A stretch of 44,107 nucleotides of DNA from a virus. This document shows positions 13,886-19,896 of this stretch, piece after piece; within the stretch, counting starts at the first letter, position 1, and every line of letters starts with the position of its first letter. The translations under genes and the position numbers were made by a program. The stretch is from positions 1 to 44,107 of the IMG/VR virus record IMGVR_UViG_3300048625_000250; one strand, written 5' to 3'. The notes beneath the pieces are model-generated. The model ran no database searches, was not told the origin of the DNA, and saw nothing but the letters and a program-made list of their open reading frames with translations.

Positions 13886-13957
13886 GGTCGGTTGCTAGAG
13901 TGGCTTATAGGGTGGTCCGCAAAACCATTTACAACGGTTCGAATCCGTTACTGACCT
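13886..13957 (+). tRNA. tRNA-Cys (GCA)
   Basis: Complete cloverleaf: acceptor GGTCGGT/ACTGACC (one G.T), D arm CTA/TAG, anticodon arm GTGGT-CCGCAAA-ACCAT with GCA at 13919-13921, T arm AACGG-TTCGAAT-CCGTT. The base before the anticodon (position 33) is C instead of the nearly universal T. CCA is not encoded. It would supply cysteine, a frequent residue in this phage's virion proteins. Confidence 0.78.
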
Positions 13958-13976
13958 CAAAATAAACACTACAACA

Positions 13977-14261
13977 ATGATGAATTTAGAACAAGCAAAA
14001 TTATTTATTGAAACATCAGAATGGATATTTGCTAAAACATATGCTCAAACCGCTCCGCACGAATATACCTTAATGGTTAATGCAGATTTAGAATCTTATA
14101 ATGCTTTTTGCAAATTTATTAATTCGAATTTAGTAAAAGAGCCATTTTATAAGACATGGTTTTATTATTGCTACATCGGAGAATACAAGTATTGGACGAT
14201 GGAAAAAGTAGGCGAACAACCACATCTAATTAATAGAGCTAGAATCGAAAATAAATACTAA
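13977..14261 (+). CDS. Conserved-type hypothetical protein heading the modification island
   Basis: 94 residues with the pattern FAKTYAQTAPHEYTLMVN ... FYYCYIGEYKYWTME..GEQPHLINRARIE. I recall proteins with this FAKTxxxxPHxYTL and YKYWTM/LINR pattern from many bacteria and phages without known function. Three bases separate its stop from the glycosyltransferase ATG or less, so it belongs to the same operon. Position right after the tRNA-Cys. Confidence 0.75.
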   Translation: MMNLEQAKLFIETSEWIFAKTYAQTAPHEYTLMVNADLESYNAFCKFINSNLVKEPFYKTWFYYCYIGEYKYWTMEKVGEQPHLINRARIENKY

Positions 14262-14262
14262 T

Positions 14263-14961
14263 ATGATTTGCGTACAAAACCATTATTCAAGGAATACAAA
14301 TGACCTTGAAAAGCGTATAATTGAAACATCAGATGGATTTGATTATAAAATTTTTACGGATTCAACGGACTATTACAAAGACAGAAGATCGCCATATCGA
14401 TATATGGGGATAGCTCAAAATTTTCTTAATATGATGAGGGAAAAAACCGACAACCCATATAAGATTATTATTCACGATGATGTTTCTATTCACAAAAATC
14501 TTTTTAAAAACATAAGGTATGTAATGCCTTATTCAGATGCAGGATTAACGTGTTTTTACAATCCAACAAACAATTTTTATAAAAATGCTTTTGAAAAGAA
14601 TTTTAGTGTAGTCGCTTCGTATTCTAAATTTTGGATGCAATGTGTTGCAATAAAAACGGAATGGGGTTATGAATTTGCAGAATGGATAGATAAAAACACT
14701 ATTGTAGGTCATTTATGTGAAGACCAAATGATAAGCACATATTTAGGAATTACAAATCAATTAGCAAAAATTGTTATTCCATCATTTGTTCAGCACGAAG
14801 GTTATGACAAAAGTATATTTAAAAATCCTGCATCTATTCAAGGAAATAAAAGGAATTCATTTTCATACGATCCAGATTTTGATCCTAAATCAATAGATTG
14901 GGCTTATCAATTTGCAAATCCATTAATAGATAAAACAAAATTAATTCATAATACAATTTAA
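14263..14961 (+). CDS. Predicted GT-A-fold glycosyltransferase
   Basis: 232 residues. YKIIIHDDVSIHKNLF (H71-D72-D73) looks like the metal-binding DxD-type motif of GT-A glycosyltransferases; later SKFWMQCVAIKTEWGYEFAEW and GHLCEDQMISTYL carry the usual acidic residues, and VIPSFVQHEGYDKSIF has the terminal His common in these enzymes. Sugar donor and acceptor unknown. Being directly upstream of a DNA methyltransferase and a Mom-like gene, it could glycosylate a modified base; a protein or surface-sugar target is also possible. Confidence 0.72.
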   Translation: MICVQNHYSRNTNDLEKRIIETSDGFDYKIFTDSTDYYKDRRSPYRYMGIAQNFLNMMREKTDNPYKIIIHDDVSIHKNLFKNIRYVMPYSDAGLTCFYNPTNNFYKNAFEKNFSVVASYSKFWMQCVAIKTEWGYEFAEWIDKNTIVGHLCEDQMISTYLGITNQLAKIVIPSFVQHEGYDKSIFKNPASIQGNKRNSFSYDPDFDPKSIDWAYQFANPLIDKTKLIHNTI

Positions 14962-14962
14962 T

Positions 14963-15499
14963 ATGAACAAGGCAGAAAACAGAGACATTATGTCGTTTCA
15001 AGCATTTCCAGAGTATGATATTATTTGGTGCGATCCACCTTGGGAGGATAAGATGGTTAAGTATTTTCAGACCTTAAATCATAAGCAAACTGGTAAGGTT
15101 GTAGAAAATAATATCAATGGAATTCTCGAGAAACTATTTTTATTAGCAAATAATCAAAAGCCAATTGTAGTCGAGTATTCTATTAAAGGAAGCGAACTTG
15201 TAATTGAATATGCTAAGAAACACGGTCATACGCTTACGCAGACGGTAACGGCTATTCAGGATAATGACCTAAAATCATATTTGCTGGTTTTTAACACAGA
15301 TGTAAGATTAGAACAAGGGTTGCGCGGTTACTTAAACACAACAGAAGGTGTAAGAAAGCTAGGAGCTAAATTAGTATTTGATCCATTTGCAGGGATGGGT
15401 CGCACGGCAAAAGCCGTGTTATTAGCAGGTGCATCTTATCACGGTTCTGAATTAAACGAAGCACGTTACAAAAAGCTATGCAAGATTTTATCAGTATAG
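14963..15499 (+). CDS. DNA (adenine-N6 or cytosine-N4) methyltransferase, small
   Basis: 178 residues. Motif IV DPPW (D24-W27) comes first and the AdoMet-binding motif I DPFAGMGRT (140-148) last, the order of beta-class amino-methyltransferases. The region between (LKSYLLVF, FLLANNQKPIVVEY) is short, with little room for a target-recognition domain, so specificity may come from a partner such as the ParB-type proteins encoded downstream. The 3' end overlaps the Mom-like gene by 22 bases. Could be an orphan protective methylase or the first step of a hypermodification. Confidence 0.83.
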   Translation: MNKAENRDIMSFQAFPEYDIIWCDPPWEDKMVKYFQTLNHKQTGKVVENNINGILEKLFLLANNQKPIVVEYSIKGSELVIEYAKKHGHTLTQTVTAIQDNDLKSYLLVFNTDVRLEQGLRGYLNTTEGVRKLGAKLVFDPFAGMGRTAKAVLLAGASYHGSELNEARYKKLCKILSV

Positions 15500-15867
15500 A
15501 GCCTATTAGTCTCGATTTAATCCGTCAGTATATTGCGCAGACTAAACGCGAAGGGATGGCGGGGTATTCGGAAAAAGCGGATTATTACGGTGCATTTTTT
15601 AATGGGGAATTAGCTGGATTTACATCGATTCAGTATTATGGGAATCAAAAAGTAAAATTTAACAATCACTATGTATTCCGAAATTTTAGAGGAAGGGGTG
15701 TTTTTAAAGAAATGTTTGCTTTTTCGCTTCAAAAAATAATAACAGAAGGGTATAAGACAATTATTGCATCGTGTACATCTATGAGTCTAAATTATTATAG
15801 AAAACACGGTGCAGTTGTTACTAAGTACCATAAGATTTGTACAGACGTAATAATTAAACTAACCTAA
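15478..15867 (+). CDS. GNAT-fold transferase, possibly Mom-like DNA modification enzyme
   Basis: 129 residues. RNFRGRGVFKEMF (68-80) fits the acyl-CoA-binding motif A of GNAT enzymes; the end (IIASCTSMSLNYYRKHGAVV) fits motif B. The small size, the lack of a clear peptide-type partner and the coupling to a DNA methyltransferase (22-base overlap) recall phage Mu Mom, a GNAT relative that modifies adenine N6. Plain acetylation of a protein or small molecule remains possible. The next gene starts directly after its stop. Confidence 0.75.
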   Translation: MQDFISIEPISLDLIRQYIAQTKREGMAGYSEKADYYGAFFNGELAGFTSIQYYGNQKVKFNNHYVFRNFRGRGVFKEMFAFSLQKIITEGYKTIIASCTSMSLNYYRKHGAVVTKYHKICTDVIIKLT

Positions 15868-17037
15868 ATGGCAGAGCAAATATATTATTTTAAGGATAAC
15901 GTCTATGAAGCAAGTTTAAAACGAATCAGAAGGATTTTTGATGAATTTGATAATGTTGTTGTAGGTTTTAGCGGAGGCAAAGATTCGACGTGTACACTCA
16001 ATTTGGCATTAAAGGTTGCACATGAAAAAGGACGTATTCCTTTAGCGGTAATGTTTGTCGATCAGGAAGCCGAATGGCAGGCTACAATTGACTATGTTAA
16101 GACGATAATGTACCGAGACGATGTAAAACCTTATTGGATTCAAGCCCCCTTTAAAATCACAAATTCGACGTCAGCAGATAGCGATCATTTAATGGCTTGG
16201 GGCGAAGGAGAAAATTGGATTAGAGAAAAAGATCCAATTGCAATAAAGAAAAACAATTACAATACGGCTAAAGGTACATCGCACTTAGATGAATTTTATT
16301 CGTTTTTCCCAAAATTCTTTGCACACGAGTTTAAGGGTAAGAAATCTGCATATCTTTCGGGTGTAAGAGCAGAAGAATCGCCTAACAGACGAATGGCTTT
16401 GACGGGTAGTGCGACCTATAAGGACATTACCTGGGGCAAGGTTTTAGATGCAAAGCAAGAACACTATACATTCTACCCTCTTTACGATTGGTCATATACC
16501 GATATTTGGAAGGCTATTCACGAAAACGGATGGGAGTATTGCAAGGTTTACGACCTTATGTATCAACACGGTTATCCAGTAAGAGATATGCGAGTTTCTA
16601 ACCTGCACCACGAAACGGCAGTAAAACATCTATTTTTTTTGCAAGAGATCGAGATTGACACCTATAACAAATTAACCCAACGATTGAAGGGTATTTCGAC
16701 TGCTGGAAAATTAGGGGAATCAGATTTCTTTGTAAAAGACTTACCATTTATGTTTTCTGATTGGAAGGAATACCGTGATTTCCTAGTAGAGAAACTTATT
16801 ACCGATGAACAACGTCCCGTATTCGAAAAGCGATTTAAAGCAATGGATGAAAAATACGCTGATATGGATAACCTTAAAATTTTGCATAAGACACAAGTGC
16901 AATCCGTAGTTATTAATGATTTCGGTTTCGTAAAACTTGCGAACTGGGAGACGAATCCTGCGGTAAACTCTTGGAGACGATGGAAACGGGGAGATAAAAT
17001 TGACGAATCATTGCCAAACCCATATATCAAACGATAA
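15868..17037 (+). CDS. PAPS-reductase-fold protein with DUF3440, IbrA-like
   Basis: 389 residues. The PP-loop SGGKDS (35-40) is the ATP-binding motif of PAPS reductases and tRNA thiolases; the following VMFVDQEAEWQAT and YLSGVRAEESPNRR are typical of the IbrA/DUF3440 group, which is normally ~400 residues. IbrA and IbrB were first described as regulators of Ig-binding genes in E. coli; their chemistry is not settled. The stop overlaps the start of the IbrB-like gene (TAATG), so both are made together. A role in sulfur- or adenylation-based nucleic-acid modification is inferred. Confidence 0.88.
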   Translation: MAEQIYYFKDNVYEASLKRIRRIFDEFDNVVVGFSGGKDSTCTLNLALKVAHEKGRIPLAVMFVDQEAEWQATIDYVKTIMYRDDVKPYWIQAPFKITNSTSADSDHLMAWGEGENWIREKDPIAIKKNNYNTAKGTSHLDEFYSFFPKFFAHEFKGKKSAYLSGVRAEESPNRRMALTGSATYKDITWGKVLDAKQEHYTFYPLYDWSYTDIWKAIHENGWEYCKVYDLMYQHGYPVRDMRVSNLHHETAVKHLFFLQEIEIDTYNKLTQRLKGISTAGKLGESDFFVKDLPFMFSDWKEYRDFLVEKLITDEQRPVFEKRFKAMDEKYADMDNLKILHKTQVQSVVINDFGFVKLANWETNPAVNSWRRWKRGDKIDESLPNPYIKR

Positions 17038-17684
17038 TGATAAAAGACCAAATTTTAGAAGCGTTCGGCAAAGCCGAAAATAAGATAGAATTTCTTTGTG
17101 AAATCAGAGAGTTCTTACATACTTTGTCTCCGCTTAATACGCAACCCGTAGACTTAATCAAATGGGTAGATATTAACAAGGTAACTGCAAACGACTACAA
17201 CCCGAATTCAGTAGCTAAAAATGAAATGAAGCTACTTTACACGTCGATCCTCCACGACGGTTATACACAACCCGTAGTTACCGTGTATGACAAAGAAAAA
17301 GATATGTATGTAATTGTAGATGGATTTCACCGATTCTTAACGTGTAAGTCGAATCAAGATATTAGAGACCGTAATTATGGATATTTACCAGTTGTTGTTA
17401 TCAATAAAGACATCAATGATAGAATGGCATCTACTGTTCGACACAACAGAGCAAGAGGAAAACACGCGGTAGGATCGATGTCAAGTATGGTTTTTGAGAT
17501 GCTAGAAAACGGATGGGCAGACGATCAGATTTGTGCAGAGTTAGGAATGGAAGCAGAGGAATTAATTCGCCTAAAACATATTACGGGATTCTCAAAGCTA
17601 TTCGAAAACACAGAGTACAAAAAGTCTTGGGAGACCGAAAAGCAAGTAAAGATTAGAATGGAGTATAACAAAAAACAAAAATAA
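17037..17684 (+). CDS. ParB-domain protein, IbrB-like
   Basis: 215 residues with a ParB/sulfiredoxin-type N-terminal domain: DVYVIVDGFHRFLTC-like core (VIVDGFHRFLTCK) and TVRHNRARGKHAVGSMSSMVFEML, followed by the DQICAELGMEAEELIRLKHITGFSKLFE stretch that characterises IbrB. Partner of the IbrA-like protein by order and overlap. ParB-type domains bind or cut DNA or hydrolyse nucleotides; which applies here is unknown. Five bases or fewer separate it from the second ParB gene. Confidence 0.87.
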   Translation: MIKDQILEAFGKAENKIEFLCEIREFLHTLSPLNTQPVDLIKWVDINKVTANDYNPNSVAKNEMKLLYTSILHDGYTQPVVTVYDKEKDMYVIVDGFHRFLTCKSNQDIRDRNYGYLPVVVINKDINDRMASTVRHNRARGKHAVGSMSSMVFEMLENGWADDQICAELGMEAEELIRLKHITGFSKLFENTEYKKSWETEKQVKIRMEYNKKQK

Positions 17685-17685
17685 G

Positions 17686-18231
17686 ATGGAAGTAGAAATG
17701 CTAGACATACGGATGATTCGTCCGTATCATAGAAATCCTAGAAAAAACGAAAAAGCAGTACAAGCGGTTAAGCAATCAATCGTAGACTATGGATTTAATA
17801 GTCCAATCGTAGTCGATAAGAAGTATGTTATTATTGCAGGACATACGCGTTACAAAGCGTGTTTAGAATTAAAAAAGCAGAAAGTACCGTGTGTTGTTTT
17901 AGACATCGATGAAAAAAAAGCAAAAGCATATCGTATTGCAGATAACAAGACGTCAGAACTTGCTGAGTGGGATATGGATAACTTAATTCCTGAATTGCGA
18001 GAGCTATCCGAAAGCATCGACGATTTACAGATTTACTTTAAAAATCTAAGCATCGATGATTTAATTCAGGAGTCGGTAGGACAGAGTCATTTTAAGCCCG
18101 TTACGCAGGAGCAAATTGACGCTAAGGGCGAATCACTAGGGAGCGCATACGATAACGTATCTGTGCAAGCGGAAACACTTTTGGAGGTAATCTGTCCACA
18201 TTGCGGAGAGTCGTTTCAGATAAAAAAGTAG
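17686..18231 (+). CDS. ParB-like nuclease-domain protein with C-terminal CxxC, lacking a methylase part
   Basis: 181 residues. Residues ~5-100 match the ParB-like domain that usually heads phage DNA methylases: MIRPYHRNPRKNEKAVQAVKQSI, VIIAGHTRYKACLEL, YRIADNKTSELAEWD. The methylase half is absent; instead the protein ends with ICPHCGESFQI, half a zinc ribbon. The separate small methyltransferase encoded at 14963 may supply the missing activity. Alternatively it aids terminase, whose genes follow at once. Confidence 0.85.
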   Translation: MEVEMLDIRMIRPYHRNPRKNEKAVQAVKQSIVDYGFNSPIVVDKKYVIIAGHTRYKACLELKKQKVPCVVLDIDEKKAKAYRIADNKTSELAEWDMDNLIPELRELSESIDDLQIYFKNLSIDDLIQESVGQSHFKPVTQEQIDAKGESLGSAYDNVSVQAETLLEVICPHCGESFQIKK

Positions 18232-18254: not shown

Positions 18255-18644
18255 GTGGAAAAGAAATACGCAAGAGGAAAACACCCAAATAGCCAAAAGG
18301 CACTAACACCCGTCAAAAAAGGTCAGGTATTAAATCCCTATGGACAACCTCGAAAATATGTTTCTACACTAATAAAAGACGGCTACAAAAAGGCTGAGGT
18401 AAACGATACGATTCAGGCTTTAATTTCTATGAATGTAGAAGAAATCAAAGAGGTATTGACTAATGATAAGGCTACTATCCTAGAAAAGACGGTTGCCTCC
18501 GCTTTAATAAAGTCAATTAGCCGTGGCGATCTTTCATCTATTGAGTCGTTAATTAATCGTGTGTACGGTAAACCTAAAGACCACGTTGAAACGAGTGGAA
18601 CGCAGGAAATTAGGATTATAAGGACGAATGCAAGTAGAACTTAA
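18255..18644 (+). CDS. terS: Small terminase subunit candidate
   Basis: 129 residues from a GTG start; no ATG is available in the short gap. The front KKGQVLNPYGQPRKYVS resembles the GNPxGRP element of DUF5681-type proteins that precede terminases, followed by helices. It would recognise the packaging site and present DNA to the large subunit. Overlaps the large terminase gene by 17 bases, the usual arrangement. Identity is by position and pattern. Confidence 0.75.
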   Translation: MEKKYARGKHPNSQKALTPVKKGQVLNPYGQPRKYVSTLIKDGYKKAEVNDTIQALISMNVEEIKEVLTNDKATILEKTVASALIKSISRGDLSSIESLINRVYGKPKDHVETSGTQEIRIIRTNASRT

Positions 18645-19896
18645 TCAACTTCACGAAGGTCAGCAACATATCATAGACAATCGGAAACGGTTTAATGTGG
18701 TATGTTGTGGACGTCGTTTCGGTAAGACGGCTATGGCGGTCGAGTTAATCTTAGATGATGAGCAAGATAACGGTGCACTAAAGGGTCATAAGATTGCCTA
18801 TATGGCACCGTCTTACAAGATGCTAGAAGAAGTTTGGCTTGAATTACTATACCGTTGCAGGGACATCTTAAAAAGCAAGAATGAGTCTGCTAAACGGATC
18901 GTATTAGTGACGGGCGGTACAATAGACTTTTGGTCGATGGATAATATCGATTCAATTCGTGGTAGAAAATACAAACGTGTTATTTTGGATGAGGCTTCTA
19001 TTCTAAATAGCAAGAAGTTAAAAGATATTTGGGAGCAGTCTATTAGACCACTCTTAACTGACCTGAAAGGCGATGCTTATTTCCTCTCTACCCCCAAGGG
19101 GAAAAAGCATTACTTTCGGGAGCTAGCAGATAATTACAAGAAGCACGGTAAGTCTTGGGCATTCTTTCAGATGCCTACATTATCAAATCCTTTTATCGAC
19201 CCCGCAGAAGTCGAGGAAGCACGAATGATGTTGCCTCCTGTAGTCTTTGCACAAGAGTATGAAGCCGTATTTACTGATATGGTTTCAGATAACCTATTTA
19301 TTCAAACATTCTCAATTGAAAAGCACGTATCAAAAGAGCCTATTGCTTATAATCCATCGTTGCCTACCTACATATCGATTGACTTTAACGTATCACCACT
19401 ATGTTGTATTGTTGTACAGATGGATCTACATTTTAGGTCGATACACGTGATTAACGAGTACAGACAGATGGATTCGGACGTTTATGAACTTTGCGAGTGG
19501 ATTAAGTCAAACTACGATTCACGCAGAATCTTTATTACGGGAGATGCGGCAGGATTTAACCGTTCAGCCTATTCCCGTGCGCATCAGTCTGCATTTCAAA
19601 TTATTCAGACTGAACTAAACCTAAATTGGTCGCAGGTAAAAACACCTAGAGGTAAGCCCGCTGGATATGTAAACAATAAACGTCTTCTAGGCAACGCATT
19701 ATTCGCAAAACATCCTAACCTATTACTAAGCAACTGTCCGTGGCTAGTAGAGGATTTAACCAACGTAGAATGCGACTCTATGGGTCAAATGAATAAGACC
19801 CGTGACTCTACTCAGTCACACTTACTAGATTCGTTACTTGACTTTTTCTTTTCGTGTTGTCAGGACGCGGTTAAGATGCCATCTATGCGCGGTTAG
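18628..19896 (+). CDS. terL: Terminase large subunit
   Basis: 422 residues, the typical size. Walker A GRRFGKT (28-34) and Walker B VILDEA mark the packaging ATPase; the C-terminal RNase-H-fold nuclease shows the acidic residues in YISIDFNV, FITGDAAG and HLLDSLLDFFF. It pumps DNA into the prohead and cuts concatemers. Placed directly after the small subunit and before tail genes, not before the portal as in most siphoviruses. Confidence 0.96.
   Translation: MQVELNQLHEGQQHIIDNRKRFNVVCCGRRFGKTAMAVELILDDEQDNGALKGHKIAYMAPSYKMLEEVWLELLYRCRDILKSKNESAKRIVLVTGGTIDFWSMDNIDSIRGRKYKRVILDEASILNSKKLKDIWEQSIRPLLTDLKGDAYFLSTPKGKKHYFRELADNYKKHGKSWAFFQMPTLSNPFIDPAEVEEARMMLPPVVFAQEYEAVFTDMVSDNLFIQTFSIEKHVSKEPIAYNPSLPTYISIDFNVSPLCCIVVQMDLHFRSIHVINEYRQMDSDVYELCEWIKSNYDSRRIFITGDAAGFNRSAYSRAHQSAFQIIQTELNLNWSQVKTPRGKPAGYVNNKRLLGNALFAKHPNLLLSNCPWLVEDLTNVECDSMGQMNKTRDSTQSHLLDSLLDFFFSCCQDAVKMPSMRG

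Follow-up and report, generated by a model that had tools for sequence, protein, structure and literature searches.

A GNAT acyltransferase gene in a variable position of a conserved phage gene cassette with a possible role in DNA hypermodification

The viral DNA analyzed here (the window) comprises positions 1 to 44,107 of the IMG/VR virus record IMGVR_UViG_3300048625_000250 (44.1 kb). Upstream of the terminase genes it contains a gene cassette, all genes of which lie on the same strand (+). A small conserved protein of 94 AA, labeled DUF94 here (13977..14261; invariant A19, K20, P27, H28 and Y30, followed by Y72, W73 and INRA), for which a fold search gave no match, is followed by a glycosyltransferase-like (GT-like) protein (14263..14961), whose relative in locus L009 matches the glucosyltransferase family phrog_854 (E=1e-10). 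Next are the methyltransferase-like protein MT1 (14963..15499) and a GNAT N-acyltransferase (15478..15867), then an IbrA-like PP-loop ATP pyrophosphatase (15868..17037), an IbrB-like protein with ParB/sulfiredoxin fold (17037..17684) and a second ParB protein, ParB2 (17686..18231), which ends in a CPHC zinc-finger-like tail. The 3' border of the cassette is marked by a putative small terminase subunit (TerS, 18255..18644), placed by its position between ParB2 and TerL and by a weak DUF5681 match below the cut-off; the large subunit TerL (18628..19896) matches Terminase_6N and phrog_2. A tRNA-Cys (GCA) gene lies just before the cassette (13886-13958); it was considered as a cassette part and dismissed, since a scan of 17 related loci detected no copy of it.

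Phages commonly encode GNATs, many of which have proteins or small molecules as substrates. The window protein has 129 AA, an ATG start, a canonical acetyl-CoA motif A and a pI of 9.4; values of 9.3-9.7 were obtained for six cassette GNATs. The original prediction, in which this ORF starts 22 bases inside an upstream ORF of 178 AA (14963-15499), was exact with respect to both ORFs and their overlap. Its assignment to the GNATs also holds, since PF00583 is matched with E=1e-5 and 26.2 bits (cut-off 20.7) and the fold agrees; the motif A it had given as RGRGVF reads RNFRGRGVF in the protein. The AlphaFold2 model (pLDDT 89) gave hundreds of GNAT matches in a PDB fold search and resembles ordinary acetyl-CoA GNATs, namely HP0935, RimI, Ard1 and PaiA, of which the spermidine acetyltransferase PaiA is matched by sequence as well as by structure. 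The closest relative, in locus L002, is 78% identical with a dN/dS of about 0.12 (dS near saturation); hence, the ORF is a genuine gene under purifying selection and not a chance ORF. Searching 50,697 phage records by tblastn gave no match to either the GNAT or the MT1 protein, and thus no cultured phage with exactly this pair.

In MT1, DPPW (motif IV) precedes FDPFAGMG (motif I), which is the order of beta-class N6-adenine/N4-cytosine amino-methyltransferases, and DPPW is present in 25/25 full-length MT1 sequences. Using PF01555, the window protein scored 25.8 bits (cut-off 26.7) and its L006 relative 37.5 bits; in both cases, the match is confined to the C-terminal part. The MT1 family profile matches the beta-class adenine methyltransferases HP0050, MboIIA and CcrM in the PDB, as well as 5hek (annotated as DpnA; 1.3e-8). 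Across the aligned range MT1 lacks about 48 residues compared to the HP0050-type enzyme and therefore apparently has no full target-recognition domain. ParB2 may supply the DNA binding which the short MT1 lacks, because it matches the N-terminal domain found in ParB-methyltransferase fusions of phages (phrog_498, 1.7e-35; PADLOC MTase_II, 1e-23). A search of the MT1 profile against 84,980 species genomes gave, among the matches listed, partial methyltransferase-domain matches only. The overlap between methyltransferase and GNAT genes recurs in related loci and amounts to 22 bases in the window and in L002, 23 in L020, and 4 in L004 and L114. Between the window and L002, methyltransferase and GNAT are 77% and 78% identical compared to 96% for IbrA, at similar dS; thus, divergence is faster in the tailoring pair than in the core. 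Several loci (among them L029 691-1275 and L065 6528-7097) encode, beside an intact methyltransferase, a second methyltransferase-like protein in which motif IV is altered (EPSW, EPPF or ELPW) and which is possibly a heterodimer partner.

The IbrA-like protein matches PAPS_reduct/DUF3440 and phrog_2302 (PF01507, 2.8e-17), its IbrB-like neighbor phrog_2159. The SGGKDS PP-loop is invariant in all 29 distinct IbrA homologs, and none of their cysteines is conserved, including any that could be the catalytic cysteine of PAPS reductase. In view of what is seen in the PP-loop family, this combination argues against sulfur transfer, which appears unlikely, and for adenylation. Phosphorothioation is disfavored on the same grounds and because the similarity to DndC is weak and local; the full-length DndC-type profile TIGR03183 scored 24.9 bits at a cut-off of 290. 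IbrA-IbrB pairs also occur in phages of Flavobacterium, Mycobacterium, Streptococcus and Arthrobacter, and those of the Flavobacterium phages FCL-2 and 6H were annotated as possible virulence factors (PMC4541368). The IbrB-like protein of Mycobacterium phage Gaia (L048 5617-6516) is annotated as an ectoine synthase/ParB multidomain protein.

Related viral contigs were gathered by searches with the methyltransferase, GNAT, IbrA and SpeD proteins, and the loci collected are designated by L-numbers. Each of the 42 loci retained, many of which are metagenomic fragments, was required to hold IbrA and a methyltransferase; they form 27 groups at 90% IbrA identity. All cassette counts rest on profiles built from this same locus set. 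The order kept across the 42 loci is (ParB)-DUF94-(glucosyltransferase-like)-methyltransferase-(slot)-IbrA-IbrB-(ParB)-TerS-TerL. IbrB is found in 27/27 groups, whereby the presence of IbrA-IbrB everywhere is partly by construction, ParB2 in 25/27 and DUF94 in 20/27. The GT-like gene occurs in 14/27 groups, all of them with an MT1-type methyltransferase, and is absent from the groups having only the MT2 type. Between the loci L005 and L006, identity is 93% over the stretch that begins at the end of the methyltransferase gene and includes SpeD, IbrA, IbrB and the downstream region, and 89% in DUF94, while one carries MT2 and the other GT-MT1. This pair is a natural experiment: GT-MT1 swaps as a unit. 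The cultured Arthrobacter phage Laroye (L054 3276-8295) has the same architecture, with the order ParB, PAPS reductase, ParB, 'methyltransferase', HTH and terminase; its 'methyltransferase' has no Pfam match. Three loci encode DUF94 as a fusion with a SAM-dependent methyltransferase domain of class I (L033 2530-3321, L035 670-1464, L066 4634-5440). In L004 (667-4038), IbrA fragments lie on opposite strands, and this contig may be rearranged or misassembled.

Most cassettes have no GNAT. Seven loci (six groups) contain one within the cassette; its gene directly follows that of the methyltransferase in the window, L002, L004, L020 and L114, and that of DUF94 in L003 and L030. Identity between cassette GNATs is as low as 18%, so that several may be independent acquisitions and not necessarily one family. 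Other enzymes at variable positions are SpeD-family decarboxylases, the second methyltransferase-like protein, an HNH nuclease, GP88, a saccharopine-dehydrogenase-like protein in L077 (PF16653, 1.5e-13) and an N-methyltransferase of the NNMT/PNMT/TEMT family in L067 (PF01234, 9e-9). The SpeD genes, which are found in relatives and not in the window, are located before DUF94 or after the methyltransferase gene and match PF02675 with E=5e-12 to 7e-22 (46-78 bits, cut-off 25); the two scored with the equivalog TIGR03330 reached 36.8 and 66.5 bits and thus missed its cut-off of 75.65. Some contain ESH and H(S/A)FPE, as expected of AdoMet decarboxylase, others TTSH and HTWD, which tentatively divides them into AdoMet decarboxylase-like and ornithine decarboxylase-like types. 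Li and colleagues (PMC9992855, PMC10407285) showed that phage SpeD homologs can be ornithine or arginine decarboxylases. When SpeD alone served as the seed of a scan, 12 of 14 relatives lay inside this cassette, although the query was built from cassette SpeDs and is not fully unbiased. The idea that GNAT and SpeD are mutually exclusive alternatives was withdrawn, as L114 holds both. Another glycosyltransferase-like protein (INLDDDM) accompanies SpeD and IbrA in L112 (2213-2995), L111 and L119, and neither MT1 nor MT2 was detected in these loci. As L112 contains SpeD but no methyltransferase, the parts do not have to act in a single linear pathway, and a methyltransferase that transfers aminopropyl groups from decarboxylated SAM is possible but not required.

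A role of the cassette in DNA modification is supported by its context, i.e., by the presence of a methyltransferase, a GT-like protein, ParB proteins and a PP-loop ATPase. Several inserts belong to families which make or act on amines (SpeD, saccharopine dehydrogenase, NNMT/PNMT/TEMT), and the simplest explanation of these would be an amine-bearing DNA modification which is capped or varied by tailoring enzymes. The most likely reading, held with somewhat less than even confidence, is that the product of the cassette is a hypermodified base bearing an amine, and that the GNAT N-acylates this amine or its precursor. In such a phage DNA-hypermodification cassette, the GNAT would be a tailoring enzyme that can be exchanged for others. 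IbrA would adenylate the base or the side-chain donor and, together with IbrB, an amine-bearing group would be attached. ParB2 and DUF94 would bring the methyltransferase-like enzyme, which has no full target-recognition domain, to the DNA, and this enzyme and the GT-like protein would make further changes. The basic GNAT would take an acetyl group, or another acyl group, from CoA and transfer it to the free amine of the modification or of a small-molecule precursor, and the product would hide the phage DNA from host nucleases. The proposal builds on the observed conservation of the cassette, its variable content, the one module swap, the GNAT fold, purifying selection and the catalytic motifs; from these we infer DNA as the substrate, the involvement of an amine, the order of the steps and the acyl donor and acceptor of the GNAT. 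To our knowledge, no modified nucleoside is known from any phage with this cassette. Amine chemistry does not account for the HNH nuclease, GP88 and the second methyltransferase-like protein, and for this reason the slot may be no more than a site that tolerates insertions.

The Mom family is defined by carbamoylmethyl modification of adenine N6 in DNA. In the original prediction, the Mom-sized GNAT was set beside Mu Mom, a GNAT relative acting on adenine N6, and together with its neighbor it could give a two-step or alternative adenine modification. As a Mom-type enzyme, it would add an acyl-derived group directly to adenine N6, in competition with or following N6-methylation by the neighbor. 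Like Mu Mom (PF25680; PDB 8bv8), the window protein is a phage protein of GNAT fold in a DNA-modification setting; it is basic, and its gene is translationally coupled to one whose best PDB matches are adenine-N6 methyltransferases. Kinship with Mom was nevertheless rejected, as profile, hhalign, PDB sequence and fold searches were all negative. PF25680 matched none of the GNATs of the window, L003, L004, L020 and L030 (control Mu Mom, 2.4e-75), and phrog_1384 matched neither the window GNAT nor three relatives. Aligning a profile of five cassette GNATs to a profile of seven Mom proteins with hhalign gave a probability of 2.4%. The solved Mom structure 8bv8 appears neither among the 60 best of the 84 matches to PDB sequences nor among the top 50 structural matches, which show an ordinary acetyl-CoA GNAT fold. 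Residues invariant in the seven Mom proteins (HY, ELxR, SxAD, YxA) are missing from the GNAT alignment, which instead has the canonical acetyl-CoA motif, and far from being Mom-sized the protein has about half the length of Mom. Mu Mom also sits in the com-mom pair, the window GNAT in a multi-gene cassette. A Mom-type reaction is thus highly improbable; of the earlier reading, the connection of the GNAT and methyltransferase pair to DNA modification is supported, as both lie in a cassette pointing there, and the Mom kinship does not. The variable neighbors point to a modification bearing an amine and less to alternative marks on N6. In Microbacterium phage Appa (L058 3469-4728), the gene directly downstream of a ParB gene encodes Mom and adjoins a tRNA-Gly(CCC) gene, which is perhaps relevant to the source of the Mom side chain.

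The substrate of the GNAT could also be something other than DNA. Phage GNATs which modify RNA polymerase have been described (PMC7824862), and RimI and N-terminal acetyltransferases are structural neighbors of the window protein; it could therefore modify host proteins, such as RNA polymerase, ribosomal or defense proteins, and lie in the cassette by chance or for co-expression. Given that a GNAT recurs in the cassette in seven loci at two positions and overlaps the methyltransferase gene in five of them, we consider this unlikely. Acetylation of free polyamines or of another small molecule, with SpeD and GNAT genes managing polyamine pools and not DNA, would agree with PaiA being matched by sequence and structure, with SpeD as the most frequent amine-related insert, and with documented phage polyamine enzymes including spermidine N-acetyltransferases (PMC9992855). 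The linkage to methyltransferase, GT-like and ParB genes, the absence of SpeD from the window and the strongly basic GNAT make this quite unlikely. Finally, the locus might be an ordinary anti-restriction methylation locus, producing plain m6A or N4mC, with the GNAT as one piece of unrelated cargo. MT1 does resemble beta-class adenine methyltransferases, and HNH and GP88 genes are also found in the variable positions, but methylation would need neither IbrA-IbrB, present in all groups (partly by construction), nor the GT-like protein of 14 groups, and GT-MT1 swaps as a unit; we regard such a locus as very unlikely.

Among known systems, the IbrA/IbrB pair of E. coli and many phages has the same two-gene core (phrog_2302, phrog_2159), to which the window cassette adds methyltransferase, GT-like, DUF94 and tailoring genes. 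The phosphorothioation systems Dnd, Ssp and BREX-4 (DndC, SspD, BrxP) likewise combine an enzyme of PP-loop/PAPS-reductase fold with a ParB-superfamily protein; in contrast, the similarity of IbrA is weak and local (PADLOC DndC, 5e-8 over 37 residues), conserved cysteines are missing and no DndD/DndE-like gene was identified in the cassette. TilS (lysidine) and TiaS (agmatidine) are PP-loop enzymes modifying bases in tRNA. Their ATP-dependent attachment of an amine to a pyrimidine provides a chemical model for IbrA acting with an amine, although the likeness does not extend beyond the PP-loop (TIGR02432, E=0.003, far below cut-off). The M6-type thymidine-hypermodification clusters of phages, built on thymidylate synthase and aG/PT-PPlase (PMC9599517), also achieve base modification with additional tailoring enzymes; their core enzymes differ, and neither of these two was identified in the cassette.

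In the literature searched, mostly its openly accessible part, we found no description of the cassette and no DNA-modification role for IbrA-IbrB; the text of the eLife MetaGPA study mentions neither PAPS nor ParB. The gene set thus appears to be widespread and undescribed. PAPS-reductase-like phage genes are often reported as sulfur-metabolism genes. Since the IbrA homologs have no conserved cysteine and their genes are linked to those of methyltransferase, ParB and terminase, we argue that the IbrA group may serve DNA modification instead, in which case the common IbrA/IbrB pair would gain a function. A broader idea, to which we assign a low probability, is that IbrA-IbrB forms the core of a widespread phage DNA-hypermodification system not described so far. 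In this system, PP-loop adenylation would serve to attach amines to bases, in the manner of TilS and TiaS on tRNA, and phages would diversify the product by exchanging decarboxylase, N-methyltransferase, glycosyltransferase and GNAT modules. If this is true, the window phage would carry, e.g., an N-acetylated amino-alkyl base.
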